Below are positions 30,557-43,348 of a stretch of DNA of 64,000 nt, piece by piece (positions within the stretch are counted from its first letter, which is position 1; each line of letters opens with the position of its first letter). The notes beneath the pieces were generated by a model that saw nothing but the letters and a program-made list of their open reading frames with translations, did not search any database and was not told the origin of the DNA. The position numbers were made by a program, and so were the translations under genes. The DNA is from an uncultured Candidatus Actinomarina sp. (GTDB lineage: Bacteria > Actinomycetota > Acidimicrobiia > Actinomarinales > Actinomarinaceae): positions 64,834 to 128,833 of the forward strand of contig CACLXG010000002.1 of NCBI GenBank assembly GCA_902610815.1, read 5' to 3'.

Positions 30557-30614
30557 AAAAACCCTTGTGGGCGCTACAGGATTTGAACCTGTGACTTCTT
30601 CCTTGTAAGGGAAG
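30557..30614. repeat. att1: tRNA-Val 3'-half direct repeat
   Basis: A 58-bp segment identical to 35387-35444, which is the 3' half of the intact tRNA-Val plus the 11 bp just downstream of it (the AAAAACCCTTG flank). The tRNA part breaks off after the anticodon stem, the usual cross-over position for tyrosine recombinases using tRNA genes. It marks the left edge of the array. The 30479-30786 gap contains only this repeat and the arm-like repeats beside it. Confidence 0.85.
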
Positions 30615-30731
30615 AACGATTAAATACTATTGAGTATCAGAGAGGATCAATTTAAACCATCAATAAACATAAGGCTTGTACTAGTCAGTACCAGAAGCTA
30701 CCAGGTTTTGTCATATGTTTTGGAACAGAAT

Positions 30732-30751
30732 GGGCGTCATTTGGGCGTCAA
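30732..30751. repeat. GGGCGTCA tandem pair, left copy
   Basis: Two GGGCGTCA octamers at 11-bp spacing (30732 and 30743). The same 20 bp recur at 31211-31230 with one mismatch at the first base. One-helical-turn spacing suggests protein binding on one DNA face, for example recombinase arm sites. A remnant of a lost integrase 3' end is an alternative. Confidence 0.55.
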
Positions 30752-30786
30752 TTATTCGATATTATAAATTTAAATCGGAAAGTTGA

Positions 30787-31122
30787 CTATTCTGAATCTT
30801 CGTTAGGCACAACTCTTCCAGCATATAAATATACTGAATCTACAAAGGCTTTATCTCCCTGTGGTACAAATCCAGAATTGAGTAAGTCATTTAGATGTGA
30901 TTTGTTGTAAGTTACACCAAAGATAATACCTGTAATAAATACCGCACCAGGCACGATAGCATTAGAAACTATGTTTATACCAAAAACTATTGCTGCCCAT
31001 TTCCAATCACTTCTAAAAAGTGGTGGGAAAGGTCCCCAAAACACCATTGTCCAACTGAATCCTGTAGCCGATTGTTTTACTTCATTCGTGCTTTTGTTTA
31101 ATAAACTTACTGGTTGTGCCAT
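30787..31122 (-). CDS. Small membrane protein, HrgC/DUF2628-like
   Basis: 111 residues. After an N-terminal stretch VSLLNKSTNEVKQSATGFSWTMVFWGPFPPLFRSDWKWA come two hydrophobic helices and YNKSHLNDLLNSGFVP. This pattern (GFSWT-FFFG-PxLFRxDWK then YNKxYxxDLLxxGF) is that of small HrgC-like membrane proteins often found near mobile DNA; function unknown. It is the only gene in the small element. The start ATG is 10 codons before the GFSW block. Confidence 0.7.
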   Translation of the reverse strand: MAQPVSLLNKSTNEVKQSATGFSWTMVFWGPFPPLFRSDWKWAAIVFGINIVSNAIVPGAVFITGIIFGVTYNKSHLNDLLNSGFVPQGDKAFVDSVYLYAGRVVPNEDSE

Positions 31123-31210
31123 ATTTATTTATACCAAAATTCAGATCTATTTGCATTATAAATATTTAAAAATAAACATAATGTAGTTGAATTATTAATC
31201 CTTCCCAAAA

Positions 31211-31230
31211 AGGCGTCATTTGGGCGTCAA
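31211..31230. repeat. GGGCGTCA tandem pair, right copy
   Basis: 19 of 20 bases equal 30732-30751, here 27 bp left of att2. The two pairs have the same orientation, at opposite ends of the small element. Confidence 0.55.
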
Positions 31231-31257
31231 ACTTACTTATTTCTTACTGTATTACTG

Positions 31258-31315
31258 AAAAACCCTTGTGGGCGCTACAGGATTTGAACCTGTGACTTCT
31301 TCCTTGTAAGGAAAG
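31258..31315. repeat. att2: tRNA-Val 3'-half direct repeat
   Basis: 57 of 58 bases equal 30557-30614 and 35387-35444 (one G-to-A change at 31312). It shares the extra flank CTG before the A-run with the copy at the intact tRNA, and shares the element-side GAACGATTAAATACTA with att1. The 31123-31428 gap holds only this repeat and arm-like repeats (TATCAGAAGTTATCAGAG at 31390 and similar). Confidence 0.85.
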
Positions 31316-31428
31316 AACGATTAAATACTAGAGATTATCAGAGAGTATCAAATTATAGCGTCAATGAACTTAAGCTCTTTCAAAAAGATATCAGAAGTTA
31401 TCAGAGAATGTCTACAGTTTTAGAAAAT

Positions 31429-34400
31429 TTAAGGACCTTGATAAGGTGGTGTGAACTCAAAACCTCCCCCTTGCCCAGAGCTTGTTACATAAAACTTTCC
31501 AGAACCAGGTTGATAATATCCAGACCAATTTCCTAACCAAGAAGCAGAGTTGTTTTCAGCCCAAAAATAAGCCTGAGTTTTACCACCACCAGTTTGATTA
31601 ACAAGACCAACACAATTCTGAGCACATTGAAAACCAGTTGTCAATACTTGGCAATTACTTACATCTAATGTTGCGAAAATATATAGTTCATTATCTGGTG
31701 GAGCTGGAAAAGTTATCCCAACACAGCTTGCAGTTGTAGTAGTAGTTGTTGAAGTTGTTGTAGTTGTAGTTGTAGTTGTAGTTGTAGTTGTAGTAGTAGT
31801 TGTAGTAGTACTACTTGGAATAGTTGTAGTAGTACTACTTGGAATAGTTGTAGTTGTAGTTGTAGTTGTAGTAGTAGGTGCTGCAGGAGGTGTATAGTTT
31901 GATGGGTTATTGCTTATAAGACATTCGTTTCCAACGTCTGTTACTGGACGATAATAAGGGCTACTTTGACCAATAGTAACTGAACCCCAAGTAGTATTTT
32001 CATATAATGTAGTGAAATAATCTCTGACTTCTGTCCTGAAAGTTAAGACATCCCCAGAAGAATATCCTCTCATTAAGTATGTAAATCCTGTTCCGCCTCC
32101 ACCCTGCGCCTCACTAACTAGTGAATTATTAATATAGGTTGCAAACTTTATCGTCGTATCTCCACCAACTTCAACATAGAAACACACATCTGTATCATTT
32201 ACCCACCATATTCTTGTGTCTGCCAAATAAGGATCTTGCAACTGAATAGTAGTAGTTGTACTAGGAACGGTTGTTGTAGTTGTAGTTGAAGAAGTCACAC
32301 ATTCACCAAGTTCAATATCGTATTCAAGGCATGTTGGCGGAAGATAAGGAGCCTGAAACGTTCCGATATTATTTGCATAAAAAAGATTACTTTCAGGAAT
32401 ATAATATCCACTCCAATTGCTTAGATAGTTCTGGTAAGATATCCAAGCATACCTAACAGTCCCGTCGAAACCATAACCTTTATTTGCACCATAAACACCG
32501 CAATTACTTCTTCTGCATTCAAAACCTGTTGTCACAATACTGCAATCTTCAACACTTATTGTTGCATAGATATAAAGACCATTATCTGGAGGTTCTGTCA
32601 AGTTTATATCGCTACAATCCCCCTCAACTTCTGTATTTGGAAGAGTTACTCCAGGAGCCAGTGTAGAAGTAGTTGAACTTGAAGTAGTTGAACTTGAAGT
32701 AGTTGAACTTGAAGTAGTTGAACTTGATGTAGTTGAACTTGATGTAGTTGAACTTGAAGTAGTTGAACTTGAAGTAGTTGAACTTGATGTAGTTGAACTT
32801 GATGTAGTTGAACTTGAAGTAGTTGAACTTGAAGTAGTTGTAATTCCTATATTACTTAATACATTTCTAAGGAAACCAGGAATGGTAATAGAATTCATTA
32901 GTTGACTACTAAAATTAGTTCCATCGCTAGCTGTAATTTGTACTATGATTTCATCATTACTTGAATATTCAGAAATGTCGTACTCTATTGAATTAATCCC
33001 ATACTCAACAATAAAGACATCTTCTTCTATAGAGTTATAAATTTTTACAGTATAGTTTTTGACTTCTTTGTTATCGGTAGCATTATTCCAAGAAATATAT
33101 AAGATATCATCTTCAATTTCTAAATTAATTAGAGGTTCTCCTATCCAAAAAGGCGGTTGAAAATCAAGTGAGGCTATTAAGAAACTACTTAAGTTTTGAT
33201 CTTCATCAACTGCATTTATTTTTACTGAAATAAATCCATCTACCTCTACATTCTCTAGGTTGAATTCATACTCATTTATAGTATCTAATAATTCAACGTA
33301 GTGAATCTGTTTGTTATCAGCAAAAATACGAAGAGAGTATTTATCTATCTTCTTATTATCTTCAGCTTCTCCCCAATTAATAATTAGTAAATTTTCATTA
33401 ACATTTAAAGCTATATTTGTTTCATCAATCCAGATTGGAGGGATGGTATCTTTAGCTTCGACTACTTTTGTACAACATATAATTTCATTATCTTCATTGT
33501 CTACAACGTAGATTATGAAAGAATATTTCACACTGTCTGGTAAATCATTTAGAATAAATGAATTTTCAGTAGTTGTTATTTCTCCTGAAATATGTTCATT
33601 GTTAACTGAGTTATACGCTAATCTGTATTCTTTAATTCCTGAAACATCTGTAAACTCTGGCCAAGATATTTCTATAGAACTTGAAGTCTGCTCAACAATT
33701 GTTATAAATGGATCACCGATTGAAACTGGAGGTGATATATCCGGAACTACAAATTCAGATATTAATGCTTCACTTATATTTCCAAATTCATCAATAGCTG
33801 AAAATTTTAATAAGATTACGTCTAATTCATTATATTTTTCAAGTGAGTAATAGTATTCCTTGATTTCAGAGTTGAACCTGTAAGTTTCGGAATTTATTTC
33901 AAGAAGATACTCGCTTATTTCATTTTGATCAAGCGCTGTGGGAAAGTTAATTCTTAATATTTTGTCTGCATATGTAAATAATAATTCAGAGTCATTGTTC
34001 CAAACGGGAGCAGTTAAGTCTAATTTAAAGCTTTTTGTAATTGGATTAGACAAGTTTCCAAAAACGTTTTTTGCATTCATCTCTATTTTGTAATCACCAT
34101 CTTCTAAATTTTGATATATATAACTGAATTGATTATTTGAAAAAGTATGATAATTTATTTCATTTTCAGGTCCTGTTTTTGTAATTGAAAGATTAAATCC
34201 ATCTATTCCATTACAGTCATCAGCAAATGGCCAATGAATGTGGAGATCTCTTTCCTGGAATGAGGTATCGATCTTATCTTCTGTAAACCACGGGATTTGT
34301 AAACGTCCTTCATTTATTAAATCTGCAGCAGCCTTTATCTGAATTAATCCATAACCATAGTTTGGATCCCAACCTTTTTCTCCAAGATCTAAAACAGTAC

Positions 34401-35322
34401 AAATAAGACCATCTTTTATTTCTTCAGTAGTTATATTTATGTCTATTTCTTTTAAAATTACAGCAGCAGCAGCAACTTGAGGAGATGAAAATGATGTACC
34501 AACAGCATTTCCAATTTGAGTTGCAACTATACCTGGTGCAACAAAATCTAGTGCCTGGCCACTATTAGAAAAACCGACTTTAGTAAGCTCTCTATCAAAT
34601 CCAGTATCAGTTTTTCTAGCTTCATCTATTGCTCCAACTGCAAATACTGAAGGATGGCTTGCGGGATATCCTACTATATTGTTATACGAATTGCCTGATG
34701 AGGCGACAATGGTTACTCCTTTTGAAAGAGCATAATTTATTGCCCAATCAATGTATGGTTTACTACATGCAGGGTATGGTTCTGAACACCTAGTTCCGAG
34801 TGACATATTAATAACATCAGCACCATTATCTGCTGCATATAATATGCCATAAAATATTGCCGTCCAACTACAGAGGCCATTATCATAACAAACTTTAATA
34901 GGCATTATATTTACACCACTTGCAACACCCTCTCCAAATACCCCTCCTTTACAACCGGCAATTATTAATGCCACTTTTGTTCCATGTCCATTAGTGTCTC
35001 TCGCAGCTCCGTAACCAATTTCATTTGATATAGCGTTATACTCATTTACTAAATTTACACATTCCAAATCTGAGACTTTTGTGACACCACTATCTAAAAC
35101 TGCAACAGTTAAGGCTTTATTCGATGAAAAGGAAAAATCTTGCACATTGTCTACAACATCAAGATGCCAAACATTTCGGGCGTTTCTTTCGAAAATTCTG
35201 TAAATTTCTACTTCTGAGTTTTCTTCAACAGGTGGTAAGTTACCTTCATATTCATTTGCAAATACACTCTCTGATGATGAAATTAATAATATAAAAATTA
35301 GAAAAAATAACTTCTTCATCAT
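31429..35322 (-). CDS. Giant secreted subtilisin-like protease with FN3-like and Thr/Ser-rich linkers
   Basis: 1297 residues. Signal peptide 1-22 (MMKKLFFLIF...SVFA). The S8 peptidase domain (about 48-330) has Asp77 (AVLDSGV), His113 (NGHGT), oxyanion Asn211 (ASSGN) and Ser277 (GTSFSSP). Four or more fibronectin-III-like modules follow (about 340-830, with W-x-x-A-x-D and SAIDxxGN motifs). The tail has a (TTSSS)n linker, a Cys-containing module, a T-rich linker, a middle domain, another T-rich run and a second copy of the Cys module (PPDNxLYIxAT ... NWSGYYxPxS). No sortase or membrane anchor is seen. Probably extracellular and cell-surface associated. Confidence 0.9.
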   Translation of the reverse strand: MMKKLFFLIFILLISSSESVFANEYEGNLPPVEENSEVEIYRIFERNARNVWHLDVVDNVQDFSFSSNKALTVAVLDSGVTKVSDLECVNLVNEYNAISNEIGYGAARDTNGHGTKVALIIAGCKGGVFGEGVASGVNIMPIKVCYDNGLCSWTAIFYGILYAADNGADVINMSLGTRCSEPYPACSKPYIDWAINYALSKGVTIVASSGNSYNNIVGYPASHPSVFAVGAIDEARKTDTGFDRELTKVGFSNSGQALDFVAPGIVATQIGNAVGTSFSSPQVAAAAVILKEIDINITTEEIKDGLICTVLDLGEKGWDPNYGYGLIQIKAAADLINEGRLQIPWFTEDKIDTSFQERDLHIHWPFADDCNGIDGFNLSITKTGPENEINYHTFSNNQFSYIYQNLEDGDYKIEMNAKNVFGNLSNPITKSFKLDLTAPVWNNDSELLFTYADKILRINFPTALDQNEISEYLLEINSETYRFNSEIKEYYYSLEKYNELDVILLKFSAIDEFGNISEALISEFVVPDISPPVSIGDPFITIVEQTSSSIEISWPEFTDVSGIKEYRLAYNSVNNEHISGEITTTENSFILNDLPDSVKYSFIIYVVDNEDNEIICCTKVVEAKDTIPPIWIDETNIALNVNENLLIINWGEAEDNKKIDKYSLRIFADNKQIHYVELLDTINEYEFNLENVEVDGFISVKINAVDEDQNLSSFLIASLDFQPPFWIGEPLINLEIEDDILYISWNNATDNKEVKNYTVKIYNSIEEDVFIVEYGINSIEYDISEYSSNDEIIVQITASDGTNFSSQLMNSITIPGFLRNVLSNIGITTTSSSTTSSSTTSSSTTSSSTTSSSTTSSSTTSSSTTSSSTTSSSTTSSSTTSSSTTSTLAPGVTLPNTEVEGDCSDINLTEPPDNGLYIYATISVEDCSIVTTGFECRRSNCGVYGANKGYGFDGTVRYAWISYQNYLSNWSGYYIPESNLFYANNIGTFQAPYLPPTCLEYDIELGECVTSSTTTTTTVPSTTTTIQLQDPYLADTRIWWVNDTDVCFYVEVGGDTTIKFATYINNSLVSEAQGGGGTGFTYLMRGYSSGDVLTFRTEVRDYFTTLYENTTWGSVTIGQSSPYYRPVTDVGNECLISNNPSNYTPPAAPTTTTTTTTTTIPSSTTTTIPSSTTTTTTTTTTTTTTTTTTTSTTTTTTASCVGITFPAPPDNELYIFATLDVSNCQVLTTGFQCAQNCVGLVNQTGGGKTQAYFWAENNSASWLGNWSGYYQPGSGKFYVTSSGQGGGFEFTPPYQGP
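31735..31880. repeat. Poly-Thr codon repeat in protease linker
   Basis: Runs of GTAGTTGTA-type triplets (ACN on the coding strand) encode an almost pure Thr stretch interrupted by two copies of IPSSTTTT. Low complexity at DNA level; prone to length change by slippage. Confidence 0.8.
32664..32840. repeat. 15-bp tandem repeat (TTSSS)n with 60-bp higher order
   Basis: About 12 copies of a 15-bp unit (AGTTGAACTTGAAGT, with GATGT variants) encode TTSSS on the minus strand. The order of GAAGT and GATGT variants makes bases 32701-32760 and 32761-32820 identical, so a four-unit block duplicated as a whole. This is an O-glycosylation-prone linker in the protease. Confidence 0.9.
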
Positions 35323-35386
35323 AATTTTATTTTACATTTTGATTTTAAATGTGGGGTTTTTAGTATTTTTAACAGGTTGATTTCTG

Positions 35387-35444
35387 AAAAACCCTTGTGG
35401 GCGCTACAGGATTTGAACCTGTGACTTCTTCCTTGTAAGGGAAG
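35387..35444. repeat. att3: direct repeat within tRNA-Val gene
   Basis: The chromosomal-side copy of the 58-bp repeat, made of the 3' half of tRNA-Val and 11 bp beyond. It is identical to att1 and differs from att2 by one base. Here the sequence continues into the intact 5' half of the tRNA. Confidence 0.85.
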
Positions 35445-35471
35445 CGCTCTGCCGGACTGAGCTAAGCGCCC
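35398..35471 (-). tRNA. tRNA-Val(UAC)
   Basis: A complete 74-nt cloverleaf on the minus strand: acceptor GGGCGCT/AGCGCCC, D-arm GCTC/GAGC, anticodon stem CTTCC/GGAAG around CTTACAA (anticodon UAC), 5-nt variable loop, T-arm ACAGG/CCTGT with TTCAAAT, discriminator A. The 3' CCA is not encoded. GGGTTTTT follows. It is the intact attachment gene for the elements to its left. Confidence 0.95.
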
Positions 35472-40078: not shown

Positions 40079-43000
40079 TTAACTACATCCAAGTGAGTTT
40101 CCACAGTTTAAGCACTTGTAACAAGAACCATTTCTGATTGTTATATGTCCACAGTCAGGACAAGCAGGTGCATCTCCCATCATATCGCCAAGTACTTCTT
40201 GTACAGTAGCAACTGAATTTTCAGCTTGCTCTACAGCGACAGGTTCTGTTTGTTGTACAGACGCTGTTGGCTGTGGTTTCTCCTCTACAGCGACAGGTTC
40301 TGTTTGTTTTTTATCTTTTGGTGGAACCTGAACAATATCTGTTCTATCCAAATATTCAAGACCAAGGGCCCTAAAAACATAGTCTATTATTGAATTACTC
40401 ATTTTAATGTTTTCATGTCCTTCAACCATACCTCTTGGTTCAAACGTTTGGAAAGTAAACGTATCTACAAACTCTTCTAGAGGAACTCCATACTGAAGTC
40501 CTTTTGAAACGGCTATGGCAAAGCATCCAAGCACTCCTTTAAGAGTCGCTCCTTCTTTAGCGATATCAATAAAAACTTCTCCCAATGTTCCATCAGGATA
40601 TTCACCGGTTCTCAAGTAAACCTTATGTCCAGCAACTCTAGCCTCTTGTGTCCAACCTTCTCTTCTTTCAGGCAGTAAGAATCTTGGTCTGTTGACTCCT
40701 GCATAAGCTCTTGTTGGACTGGTACCAGGTGCAAAGTTTCCCTGAACAAGCATTGCTTCTTCTTCAAGAATCTTATTTACTTCAGGATCACTTTCATCAG
40801 AATCTCCTTCATCTGAAGATGCTGAAAGTGGTTGTGATGCTTTAGACCCATCTCGATAAATAGCTATAGCTTTTACTCCAATTTTTGCAGATTCAAAATA
40901 ACAATCTTCAATATCTTGAACAGTAGCCTCGTTTGGCATGTTCACTGTTTTAGAAATTGCTCCAGAAATGAATGGTTGAGCTGCAGCCATCATTCTCACA
41001 TGGCCCATGTAATGAATAAATCTCTCACCATCTTTACCACACTTGTTAGCACAATCAAACACTTCAAGATGTTCTTCTTTAAGATGTGGAGCCCCTTCTA
41101 TTTTCTGTGTTCCACAAATATCTAGATTTGCTTGAGCTATCTCATTTCTTGTAAACCCTAACTTCTCCAAGAGATTAAAGTCAAAAGATGTATACTCTTC
41201 TTCATCAATTCCAAGATTTTTCAAAGTATCTTCACCAAGTACAAAAACATTAAAGGCGTGTTGGATTTCAAAAGCTCCTGGAAGAGCATTTTCAATTTTT
41301 TCAATATCATTTTCTGAAAGGCCTTTGTCAATAAGCGATTCTCTATTTACATATGGAGAGTTTTCAAGAGACATGGAACCAATAACATACTGAATTATTT
41401 CATTTACTTTACTGTTTTCATATCCAAGAGATTGCAGTGCAGGACCTATAGACTGGTTAGCAATCTTCATATAACCACCACCAGCAAGTTTTTTAAACTT
41501 CATTAATGCAAAGTCTGGCTCAACTCCAGTGGTATCACAGTCCATTAAGAGACCGATAGTACCGGTTGGAGCCAATACTGTTGCCTGAGCGTTTCTATAA
41601 CCATTCTTGGTTCCAAGCTCGACAGCTTCATCCCACGATAGTTGAGCTGCTTCAAGTAAGTCTGTAGGACACAATTCCTGGTTTATTGCAATTAAATCAT
41701 GGCTTAAACCTTCATAATTGTTTGTATCATATGCTGCTTTTCTGTGATTATTCATAACTCTGAGCATATTTTCACTATTTTCTTCATATTTAGGGAATGG
41801 ACCAACAATACCTGCCATTTCAGCAGAAGCTTTGTAAGCTTCTCCAGTAAGCATCGCTGTTAAAGCTCCAGCAATTGCTCTTCCAAGATCAGAGTCATAA
41901 GCAATACCTTTTCTCATTAATAATGATCCGAGGTTTGCATAACCAAGTCCTAAAGTTCTGTAATCGTAGGAACCTTGTGCAATTTCTTTTGAAGGGAACT
42001 GAGCCATCTCAACTGAAATTTCAAGAACAATTGTCCATATTCTTAGTGCATGCTTATATGAAGCAATATCAAAAACCTGTGTCTCGTCATCGTAAAATTT
42101 AACAAGGTTAAGGCTTGCTAAGTTACAAGCTGTATTGTCTAAGAATAAGTATTCTGAACAAGGATTTGATGCACGAATACGTCCACCTTCTGGGGAAGTG
42201 TGCCATTCATTTATGGTGGTGTCATATTGAACACCAGGATCTGCACATTTCCAAGCTGCATCTGCAATTTTATTCCAAAGCTCTCTTGCTTTAACACTTC
42301 TAATTACAGACCCATCTGTTCTTGCAATAAGGTCCCAGTCCCCATCTTCTTCAACAGCTTTAACAAAATCTGCTGGTACACGAACAGAGTTATTTGAGTT
42401 TTGACCAGATACAGTAGCGTATGCTTCACCATTAAAATCAGCGGGATATCCAGCTGCAATCAATGCTCTTGCCTTATCTTCTTCAATAGCTTTCCACTCA
42501 ATGAAGTCTTCAATATCGGGGTGGTCAAGATCCAAAATGACCATTTTTGCAGCTCTTCTTGTTGTACCGCCAGATTTAATTGCGCCAGCAGCTCTATCAC
42601 CAATTTTAAGGAATGACATAACACCAGAAGAAACTCCACCACCTGATAATTGCTCTCCTTCACCTCTGAGGTTAGAGAAGTTTGTTCCGGTACCTGATCC
42701 AAATTTAAATAGTCGTGCTTCTTTGACCCAGAGGTCCATTATTCCGCCTTCATTAACTAAATCATCATCAATAGATTGAATAAAACAAGCATGGGGTTGT
42801 GGTCGTGAATAAGAGTCTTCACCTTCAGTTAGTTTTCCTGTTTTTGGATCAACATACCAAAAACCTTGAGCTGGTCCTGTTAGATCATATTTATAATTTA
42901 AACCAGTGTTAAACCATTGGGGGCTGTTAGGAGCTGCCATTTGTGTTGCAAGCATATATTTAAGTTCATCTTCAAAAGCTTGTGCGTCATCTGAGGATGC

Positions 43001-43348
43001 AAAATAACCAGTTGTTTCACCCCAATGTCTCCAGGTTTCAGCTAATCGATCAAAAACTTGTCTTGAGGAGGATTCTGGACCAAGAACTGTGTCGCCATTT
43101 TCATCTTTTAATTCATTACCATCGGCATCTAGTTGAGGTACACCTGCTTTTCTAAAATATTTTGAAACCATGATGTCTGTTGCCACCTGTGACCATGTAG
43201 AAGGAATCTCTACATCATTCATTTCAAACACTACGGAGCCATCAGGATTAGTAATTTTTGAACTTCGCTTTTCCCATGATATGTTGTTGTATGGGTTACC
43301 CGGTGTTGTATATTTTCTGTCTATTTTTAGCCCTGATTTTTTTGCCAC
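40079..43348 (-). CDS. nrdJ: Class II (adenosylcobalamin-dependent) ribonucleotide reductase
   Basis: 1089 residues with GTG start and strong AAAGGAG Shine-Dalgarno. MAAPNSPQWFNTGL, FKFGSGTGTNFSNLR, GGTTRRAAKMVILDLDHPDIEDFIEWK, NPCSEYLFLDNTACNLASLNL and APTGTIGLLMDCDTTGVEPDFAL are the B12-dependent NrdJ blocks. The C-terminus has CPDCGHITIRNGSCYKCLNCGNSLGCS, a Cys-rich redox tail. Reduces ribonucleotides to deoxyribonucleotides, oxygen-independent but cobalamin-requiring. A probable NrdR box lies upstream. Confidence 0.97.
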   Translation of the reverse strand: MAKKSGLKIDRKYTTPGNPYNNISWEKRSSKITNPDGSVVFEMNDVEIPSTWSQVATDIMVSKYFRKAGVPQLDADGNELKDENGDTVLGPESSSRQVFDRLAETWRHWGETTGYFASSDDAQAFEDELKYMLATQMAAPNSPQWFNTGLNYKYDLTGPAQGFWYVDPKTGKLTEGEDSYSRPQPHACFIQSIDDDLVNEGGIMDLWVKEARLFKFGSGTGTNFSNLRGEGEQLSGGGVSSGVMSFLKIGDRAAGAIKSGGTTRRAAKMVILDLDHPDIEDFIEWKAIEEDKARALIAAGYPADFNGEAYATVSGQNSNNSVRVPADFVKAVEEDGDWDLIARTDGSVIRSVKARELWNKIADAAWKCADPGVQYDTTINEWHTSPEGGRIRASNPCSEYLFLDNTACNLASLNLVKFYDDETQVFDIASYKHALRIWTIVLEISVEMAQFPSKEIAQGSYDYRTLGLGYANLGSLLMRKGIAYDSDLGRAIAGALTAMLTGEAYKASAEMAGIVGPFPKYEENSENMLRVMNNHRKAAYDTNNYEGLSHDLIAINQELCPTDLLEAAQLSWDEAVELGTKNGYRNAQATVLAPTGTIGLLMDCDTTGVEPDFALMKFKKLAGGGYMKIANQSIGPALQSLGYENSKVNEIIQYVIGSMSLENSPYVNRESLIDKGLSENDIEKIENALPGAFEIQHAFNVFVLGEDTLKNLGIDEEEYTSFDFNLLEKLGFTRNEIAQANLDICGTQKIEGAPHLKEEHLEVFDCANKCGKDGERFIHYMGHVRMMAAAQPFISGAISKTVNMPNEATVQDIEDCYFESAKIGVKAIAIYRDGSKASQPLSASSDEGDSDESDPEVNKILEEEAMLVQGNFAPGTSPTRAYAGVNRPRFLLPERREGWTQEARVAGHKVYLRTGEYPDGTLGEVFIDIAKEGATLKGVLGCFAIAVSKGLQYGVPLEEFVDTFTFQTFEPRGMVEGHENIKMSNSIIDYVFRALGLEYLDRTDIVQVPPKDKKQTEPVAVEEKPQPTASVQQTEPVAVEQAENSVATVQEVLGDMMGDAPACPDCGHITIRNGSCYKCLNCGNSLGCS

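Follow-up and report, generated by a model that had tools for sequence, protein, structure and literature searches.

We analysed a window of 64,000 nt from an uncultured Candidatus Actinomarina genome, in which three copies of a tRNA-Val(TAC) 3' half stand in a row at 30557-30614, 31258-31315 and 35387-35444. The middle copy measures 65 nt when counted from 31251 and has one mismatch within its 58 nt. The copies are spaced 701 bp (unit 1) and 4129 bp (unit 2) apart, and only the tRNA-proximal one belongs to a complete tRNA-Val(TAC), found by ARAGORN at 35397-35471 on the - strand. Each unit carries a single cargo gene, with ORFs of 111 and 1297 aa, and no recombinase. The initial annotation had described three such copies bounding a 0.7-kb and a 4.1-kb unit, each with one gene and without a recombinase, and all of this is confirmed. 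A BLAST search of the 1.10-Mb genome to which the window belongs found no further close copy (next match E 0.05). The features of the array are as follows.

30557-30614, - strand: outermost att core (tRNA-Val 3' half), with a trailer unlike that of the inner copies
30615-30730: P arm of unit 1, the long arm with decamer repeats
30731-30750: tandem 11-bp repeat pair in the left arm of unit 1 (TGGGCGTCATTTGGGCGTCA), putative integrase arm sites
30787-31122, - strand: cargo of unit 1, a 111-aa HrgC/DUF2628-like membrane protein
31211-31230: right (P') arm of unit 1, with the matching repeat pair at an 11-bp lag (GGCGTCATTTGGGCGTCA)
31251-31315, - strand: middle att core (tRNA-Val 3' half and trailer)
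31316-31428: P arm of unit 2, 92% identical to the genus consensus
31429-35322, - strand: cargo of unit 2, a 1297-aa secreted subtilase (S8) with an fn3 domain and Thr/Ser-rich linkers
35350-35360: right arm of unit 2, with one 11-bp repeat left (TGTGGGGTTTT; compare the repeats of locus L056)
35380-35444, - strand: tRNA-proximal att core (3' half of the real tRNA and trailer ATTTCTGAAAAACCC)
35397-35471, - strand: intact tRNA-Val (TAC), the putative attachment-site gene, whose 3' half would have been supplied by the newest unit (ARAGORN)
35433-35439, - strand: anticodon loop within a CTTCC/GGAAG stem, the predicted crossover region, with equivalents in the other two copies at 30603-30609 and 31304-31310

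The segment first described as a 58-bp tRNA 3' half is present at all three places, and its extent is corrected here to the 3' half with the entire anticodon loop plus 10-17 nt of downstream trailer. The match among the copies covers the complete loop and its 3'-side stem, and the units diverge from the tRNA just beyond the loop, suggesting that the anticodon stem-loop is the natural crossover region. The arms that follow copies 1 and 2 match at 91% over 117 nt; the left arms thus match as had been proposed, except that unit 2 is without the left 11-bp repeat pair. The locus borders a glycosyltransferase-rich region, and its conserved neighbour is a ribonucleotide reductase (RNR) gene (40079-43348); in G005, G006, G017, G021, G029, G035, G036 and G037, too, this gene shares a contig with tRNA-Val, at a distance of about 1-6 kb. 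Lopez-Perez et al. 2020 (PMC7771536) describe an envelope island, fGI1, which this setting fits.

The two units are not equivalent. Unit 1 is complete, with matched GGCGTCA repeats in both arms, and its 111-aa cargo protein is 42% identical to a phage protein annotated HrgC, in agreement with the HrgC-like assignment made earlier, and has homologues in several phages. The cargo of unit 2 is likewise the subtilase it had been taken for, with a Peptidase_S8 match at E 1e-37, an fn3 domain and a start that resembles a signal peptide. Unit 2 has its P arm, whereas the left repeat pair is absent from the distal end of that arm, where the subtilase gene ends, and its right end retains a single copy of the 11-bp repeat. 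With its left arm repeats gone and its right ones incomplete, unit 2 may be immobile, a fixed passenger. Both cargo genes are confined to one of 42 genomes and absent from the others of the set.

Complete units follow one order: core, P arm of about 113 nt, tandem 11-bp pair, cargo, second pair of the same motif, about 20-25 nt, and next core. The P arm carries tandem decamers (TATCAGAGAG-like). Among 296 sampled genomes of the class it is confined to the genus Actinomarina, and its median identity between genomes is 87%, although it is non-coding and joined to unrelated cargo. Among 33 units, exact 9-mers repeated at lag 11 were found in 58% of left-arm and 55% of right-arm windows, compared with 0% at lags 6-10, 12 and 14-16 and one right window at lag 13. 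Lag 11 is also the commonest tandem lag over 673 kb of loci (54 occurrences; each other lag between 9 and 15 has 3-24), and the majority of these repeats fall in att arms. Chance as the origin of the 11-bp repeats is ruled out by this lag control.

The repeats have a fixed position, the left ones 110-117 nt past the core and the right ones 45-50 nt short of the following core, and their motif varies from unit to unit (GGTGTCTTTTA, TGTGGGTGTTT, TGTGCGTGTAA, TGTGGGTCAAA and GTAGGGGGAAA; TGGGCGTCATT in the window). Within a unit, however, the left and right motifs match at 17.4 of 18 nt (19 units with a left pair), versus 13.2 of 18 when units are permuted (best of 20,000 permutations 15.2; p<=5e-5). 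A core with matched arm-type repeats on both sides is present in unit 1 and in most complete units, and not in unit 2 of the window. The other 14 of the 33 units are without a left pair at a threshold of at least 10/11, and with so many units lacking repeats, many may be relics. Read from the sequence, the anatomy of the units is that of a lambda/L5-like attP, with a tRNA core, a conserved P arm of about 113 nt and 11-bp repeats in both arms.

We searched 42 genomes and retrieved their tRNA-Val loci, 27 of which were complete. Displaced fragments, one to three per locus, are present at 16 of the 27, always on the 3' side of the tRNA and in the same orientation, and the genes between them vary; this count of arrays leaves out the tRNA-Ile loci L080 and L081. 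The units range from 0.44 to 5.3 kb. Outside the window, Pfam scans identify as cargo an NgoPII-type restriction-modification (RM) pair and a fused type I RM system, nucleases (NucS/PDDEXK, GmrSD-C and HNH), an Hsp70-like operon, trypsin-fn3, matrixin, and Thr/Ser-rich secreted or lipoproteins. The cargo thus consists mostly of anti-virus or surface genes, and among it we found no recombinase or recognisable phage gene, many small ORFs being without a Pfam match. Relatives compared for a fixed content, or for tRNA fragments that do not bound insertions, showed alternative cargo, so that the refuting outcome named in the initial annotation did not occur; its suggestion that single surface-protein genes are gained in this way is supported.

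Several further observations concern the arrays and their cores. The fused type I system (L061:10889-13321, - strand) is an 810-aa methyltransferase with two specificity domains, adjoining an 829-aa HsdR-like protein, and both are cargo of one unit. G007 has a second array, of two units with RM cargo, at L129:5900-10545 on contig C17, which bears no tRNA; its tRNA-Val sits on contig C1. Orphan tRNA-Val core fragments of about 38-56 nt with a complete anticodon stem-loop occur at non-tRNA loci (L070, L073, L076, L078, L079, L083 and L048; L071 and L082), upstream of a 93/124-aa gene pair and of another gene pair, and flanks are shuffled across them between genomes, as if they were secondary att sites. 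A unit of about 460 bp with a 119-aa ORF is 98% identical in L079:3309-3837 and L081:5-525 (oriented coordinates), with different neighbours, the 124-aa gene in G041 and tRNA-Ile in G012. An Actinomarina att sequence is also borne by a contig titled Flavobacteriaceae bacterium SAT168 (L103; PATA01000003.1), probably a mislabelled or contaminated MAG. An outermost fragment with the host's trailer is seen in the window and in L045, L046, L048, L057 and L064; that outermost fragments always retain the host's own trailer was not significant overall (p = 0.14, in a table that counted L080 and L081 as tRNA-Val arrays).

Comparison of units between genomes indicates transfer. G037 and G017 share an RM unit with 99.4% identity over 2186 bp; the match extends from the left core and stops precisely where the right core ends, its flanks are unrelated, and the RNR genes of the two genomes are 78.6% identical. 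The c16 unit (173 aa) is 95-98.7% identical among five genomes in most comparisons, with a lowest value of 92.9%, and between G035 and G029 it reaches 97.3%, compared with 83.1% for RNR. Near-identical units in species with such divergent RNR genes show that whole units have recently moved from species to species and that the breakpoints lie at the cores.

The main rival to integrase-driven movement is shuffling by homologous recombination, in which the insertions would be old, their integrase long lost, and the core and P arm (about 180 nt) would provide the short homology through which RecA swaps and accumulates cassettes. Units of differing cargo do have core and arm homology in common, the flank shuffling at orphan cores fits such exchange, and Lopez-Perez et al. 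2020, in the part of their text accessible to us, infer strong homologous recombination and exchange of small cassettes in this order (PMC7771536). RecA alone, however, leaves unexplained why both arms carry matched, unit-specific 11-bp repeats in a fixed place; moreover, the RM unit common to G037 and G017 ends exactly at the core, and a complete integrase-bearing element of the same arm plan exists at tRNA-Ile. We therefore regard shuffling as unlikely.

We also asked which recombinases the genomes encode. Nearly every one of the 42 genomes has one or two Xer-sized tyrosine recombinases, none has a serine resolvase or recombinase, and no Phage_integrase match falls within any array. The genome of the window has two recombinases, which match the XerD/XerC models best, below cut-off. 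In favour of mobilisation by these two Xer-like enzymes, as in IMEX elements, they are the sole tyrosine recombinases in nearly every genome, but the att core is a tRNA-Val and not a dif site. Xer-type recombinases have no arm-binding domain, whereas the units bear arm-type repeats that differ between units, and we consider this source of mobility extremely improbable.

Beyond the Xer-like proteins, the 42 genomes contain one complete integrase (G007) and two remnants (G014 and G016). Among phage proteins, the G007 integrase is most similar to the integrases of mycobacteriophages (about 30% identity). It lies inside a 5-kb element bounded by two tRNA-Ile copies (L084:5844-10882); both arms of the element have TGGTGACTTTT repeat pairs, and its cargo is an MvaI/BcnI-type RM pair. 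The genus thus does contain an integrase-bearing element of this arm plan, at another tRNA, in contrast to the units without an integrase at tRNA-Val; the G007 element is possibly an autonomous relative. It also holds a tRNA-Leu. The G014 remnant, a C-terminal piece (L086:1487-1708), is 87% identical to the G007 integrase over 53 aa and has GTGACTTTT repeats nearby.

Such remnants raise the alternative that the units descend from full phages or integrative elements, each with an integrase of its own, that shrank by deletion, so that none is mobile now and the ancestral elements did the transfer. Unit 2, without its left arm repeats, is compatible with this, as is the 24-kb prophage that Lopez-Perez et al. 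2020 (PMC7771536) report at tRNA-Val in AH-324-A03. Had the units shrunk independently, one would hardly expect 19 of them to have kept a left pair, nearly all matched on the right and with cargo alone in between, and a unit 99.4% identical in two distant species speaks for recent movement in integrase-less form. That all units are relics is thus, in our judgement, very unlikely.

We think it probable that the units are non-autonomous integrative cassettes for which tyrosine integrases are provided in trans, their movement being what we infer from the evidence above; mobilisation in trans, as initially proposed for tandem integrase-less units at a tRNA hot spot, is the best reading. A cassette would comprise no more than one or a few cargo genes and a complete attachment site for a tyrosine integrase, made up of the tRNA-Val 3' half as core, the long decamer P arm and a tandem 11-bp arm-type pair in each arm. 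A tyrosine integrase from a phage or another integrative element would act in trans by binding the arm repeats, and strand exchange in the tRNA-Val anticodon loop would insert or excise a circular cassette. Since an inserted cassette would bring a new tRNA 3' half, the tRNA would stay intact and the earlier 3' half would be pushed outwards; repeated insertion would then build the tandem array. Excision, the circle, the crossover point, the helper and the vehicle between cells belong to the inferred part of this model. The initial annotation had proposed searching the genome for a tyrosine recombinase with a matching att site, and this yielded the two Xer-like proteins and none with tRNA-Val specificity and matching arms. 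Nor was an integrase of that kind found in the other genomes, in IMG/VR (exact patterns) or among INPHARED phages. IMG/VR gave no match to the G007 integrase, and exact-pattern searches there for the tRNA core, the P arm and two of the repeat pairs returned only two chance 18-mers in coding sequence (L106 and L107).

More tentatively, the anatomy could be read as a system of addresses, a possibility to which we give somewhat less than even weight. The tRNA-Val core would be one common docking site and the matched arms would be private, such that each visiting integrase of the Actinomarina phage pool would excise and insert only its own subset of cassettes, and the host would store its defence and surface genes as a mobile library without bearing the cost of an integrase.

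To our knowledge, recognisable mobile elements are nearly absent from streamlined marine bacteria, yet the gene content of these organisms changes rapidly. If our interpretation is true, single-gene units of minimal size with a full att site and a borrowed recombinase would explain this turnover; genes seem to pass among these streamlined cells as single packages, by means of machinery that comes from outside. The interpretation predicts helper integrases and specific circle junctions, in which the right arm, the core and the P arm of one unit would be joined (for unit 1, sequence up to 31250, the core, and sequence from 30615 onwards), and gene entry could thus be tested directly on single-cell and metagenomic reads that already exist. 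The cargo of restriction systems, nucleases and surface proteins suggests phage pressure as the driver of the traffic.

Compared with known systems, the satellite- or tycheposon-like membership first suggested for the units is not supported. They resemble tycheposons in having marine streamlined hosts, a tRNA site and cargo units, but tycheposons span 4-200 kb (as cited in PMC10872708), and the missing recombinase and the size of 0.44-5.3 kb rule out a tycheposon in the strict sense. Membership of the phage satellites (PICI/PICMI-like) is not supported either, since Pfam scans found no recognisable replication, packaging or helper-interference genes in the cargo. CALINs and integron cassette arrays are similar in consisting of small tandem units, mostly of one gene each, that are mobilised in trans; the site here, however, is a double-stranded attP-type site in a tRNA, and the cassettes carry tRNA halves. 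IntI is absent, the genome of the window having only Xer-like recombinases, and the G007 integrase falls far below the integron-integrase cut-off. CIMEs and tandem accretion at tRNA sites are similar in involving att-bounded elements that lack their own integrase and lie in tandem at one site, and our units are indeed att-flanked without integrase or mobilisation genes; they differ from CIMEs in being far smaller and in having complete attP arms. No ICE, IME or conjugation gene is seen in the arrays, nor any other element beside the array of the window, and donors may be absent from the genomes examined.

In anatomy the units are like the attP of tyrosine-integrase actinobacteriophages (L5, Giles and Cluster K), in which a tRNA or tmRNA core lies between pairs of 11-bp repeats that are predicted integrase arm-type sites, and in which arm specificity varies among phages at one att site, as mycobacteriophages with a common att site can differ in arm sequence (PMC3203893). 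Unlike these phages, the cassettes are without the integrase gene and the rest of the phage, and the site flanks one cargo gene. In the same order and island, the accessible part of Lopez-Perez et al. 2020 (PMC7771536) describes tRNAs of fGI1 as targets of small gene cassettes, with direct repeats of the tRNA. The tRNA insertion, the direct repeats of part of the tRNA and the strain-variable content are all found here as well, and to that extent this is the same phenomenon as the cassettes of that additive island, already published in 2020. In the same accessible part we found no mention of an integrase, a recombinase, arm sites or a P arm. The att anatomy and the unit-specific matching of the arms are, as far as we searched the literature, unpublished, as are the near-absence of integrases in the genus and the near-identical units that cross species. 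To the fGI1 account, as far as that portion of the paper goes, our analysis adds the matched arm repeats, the genus-wide lack of integrases and the exchange of near-identical units between species.
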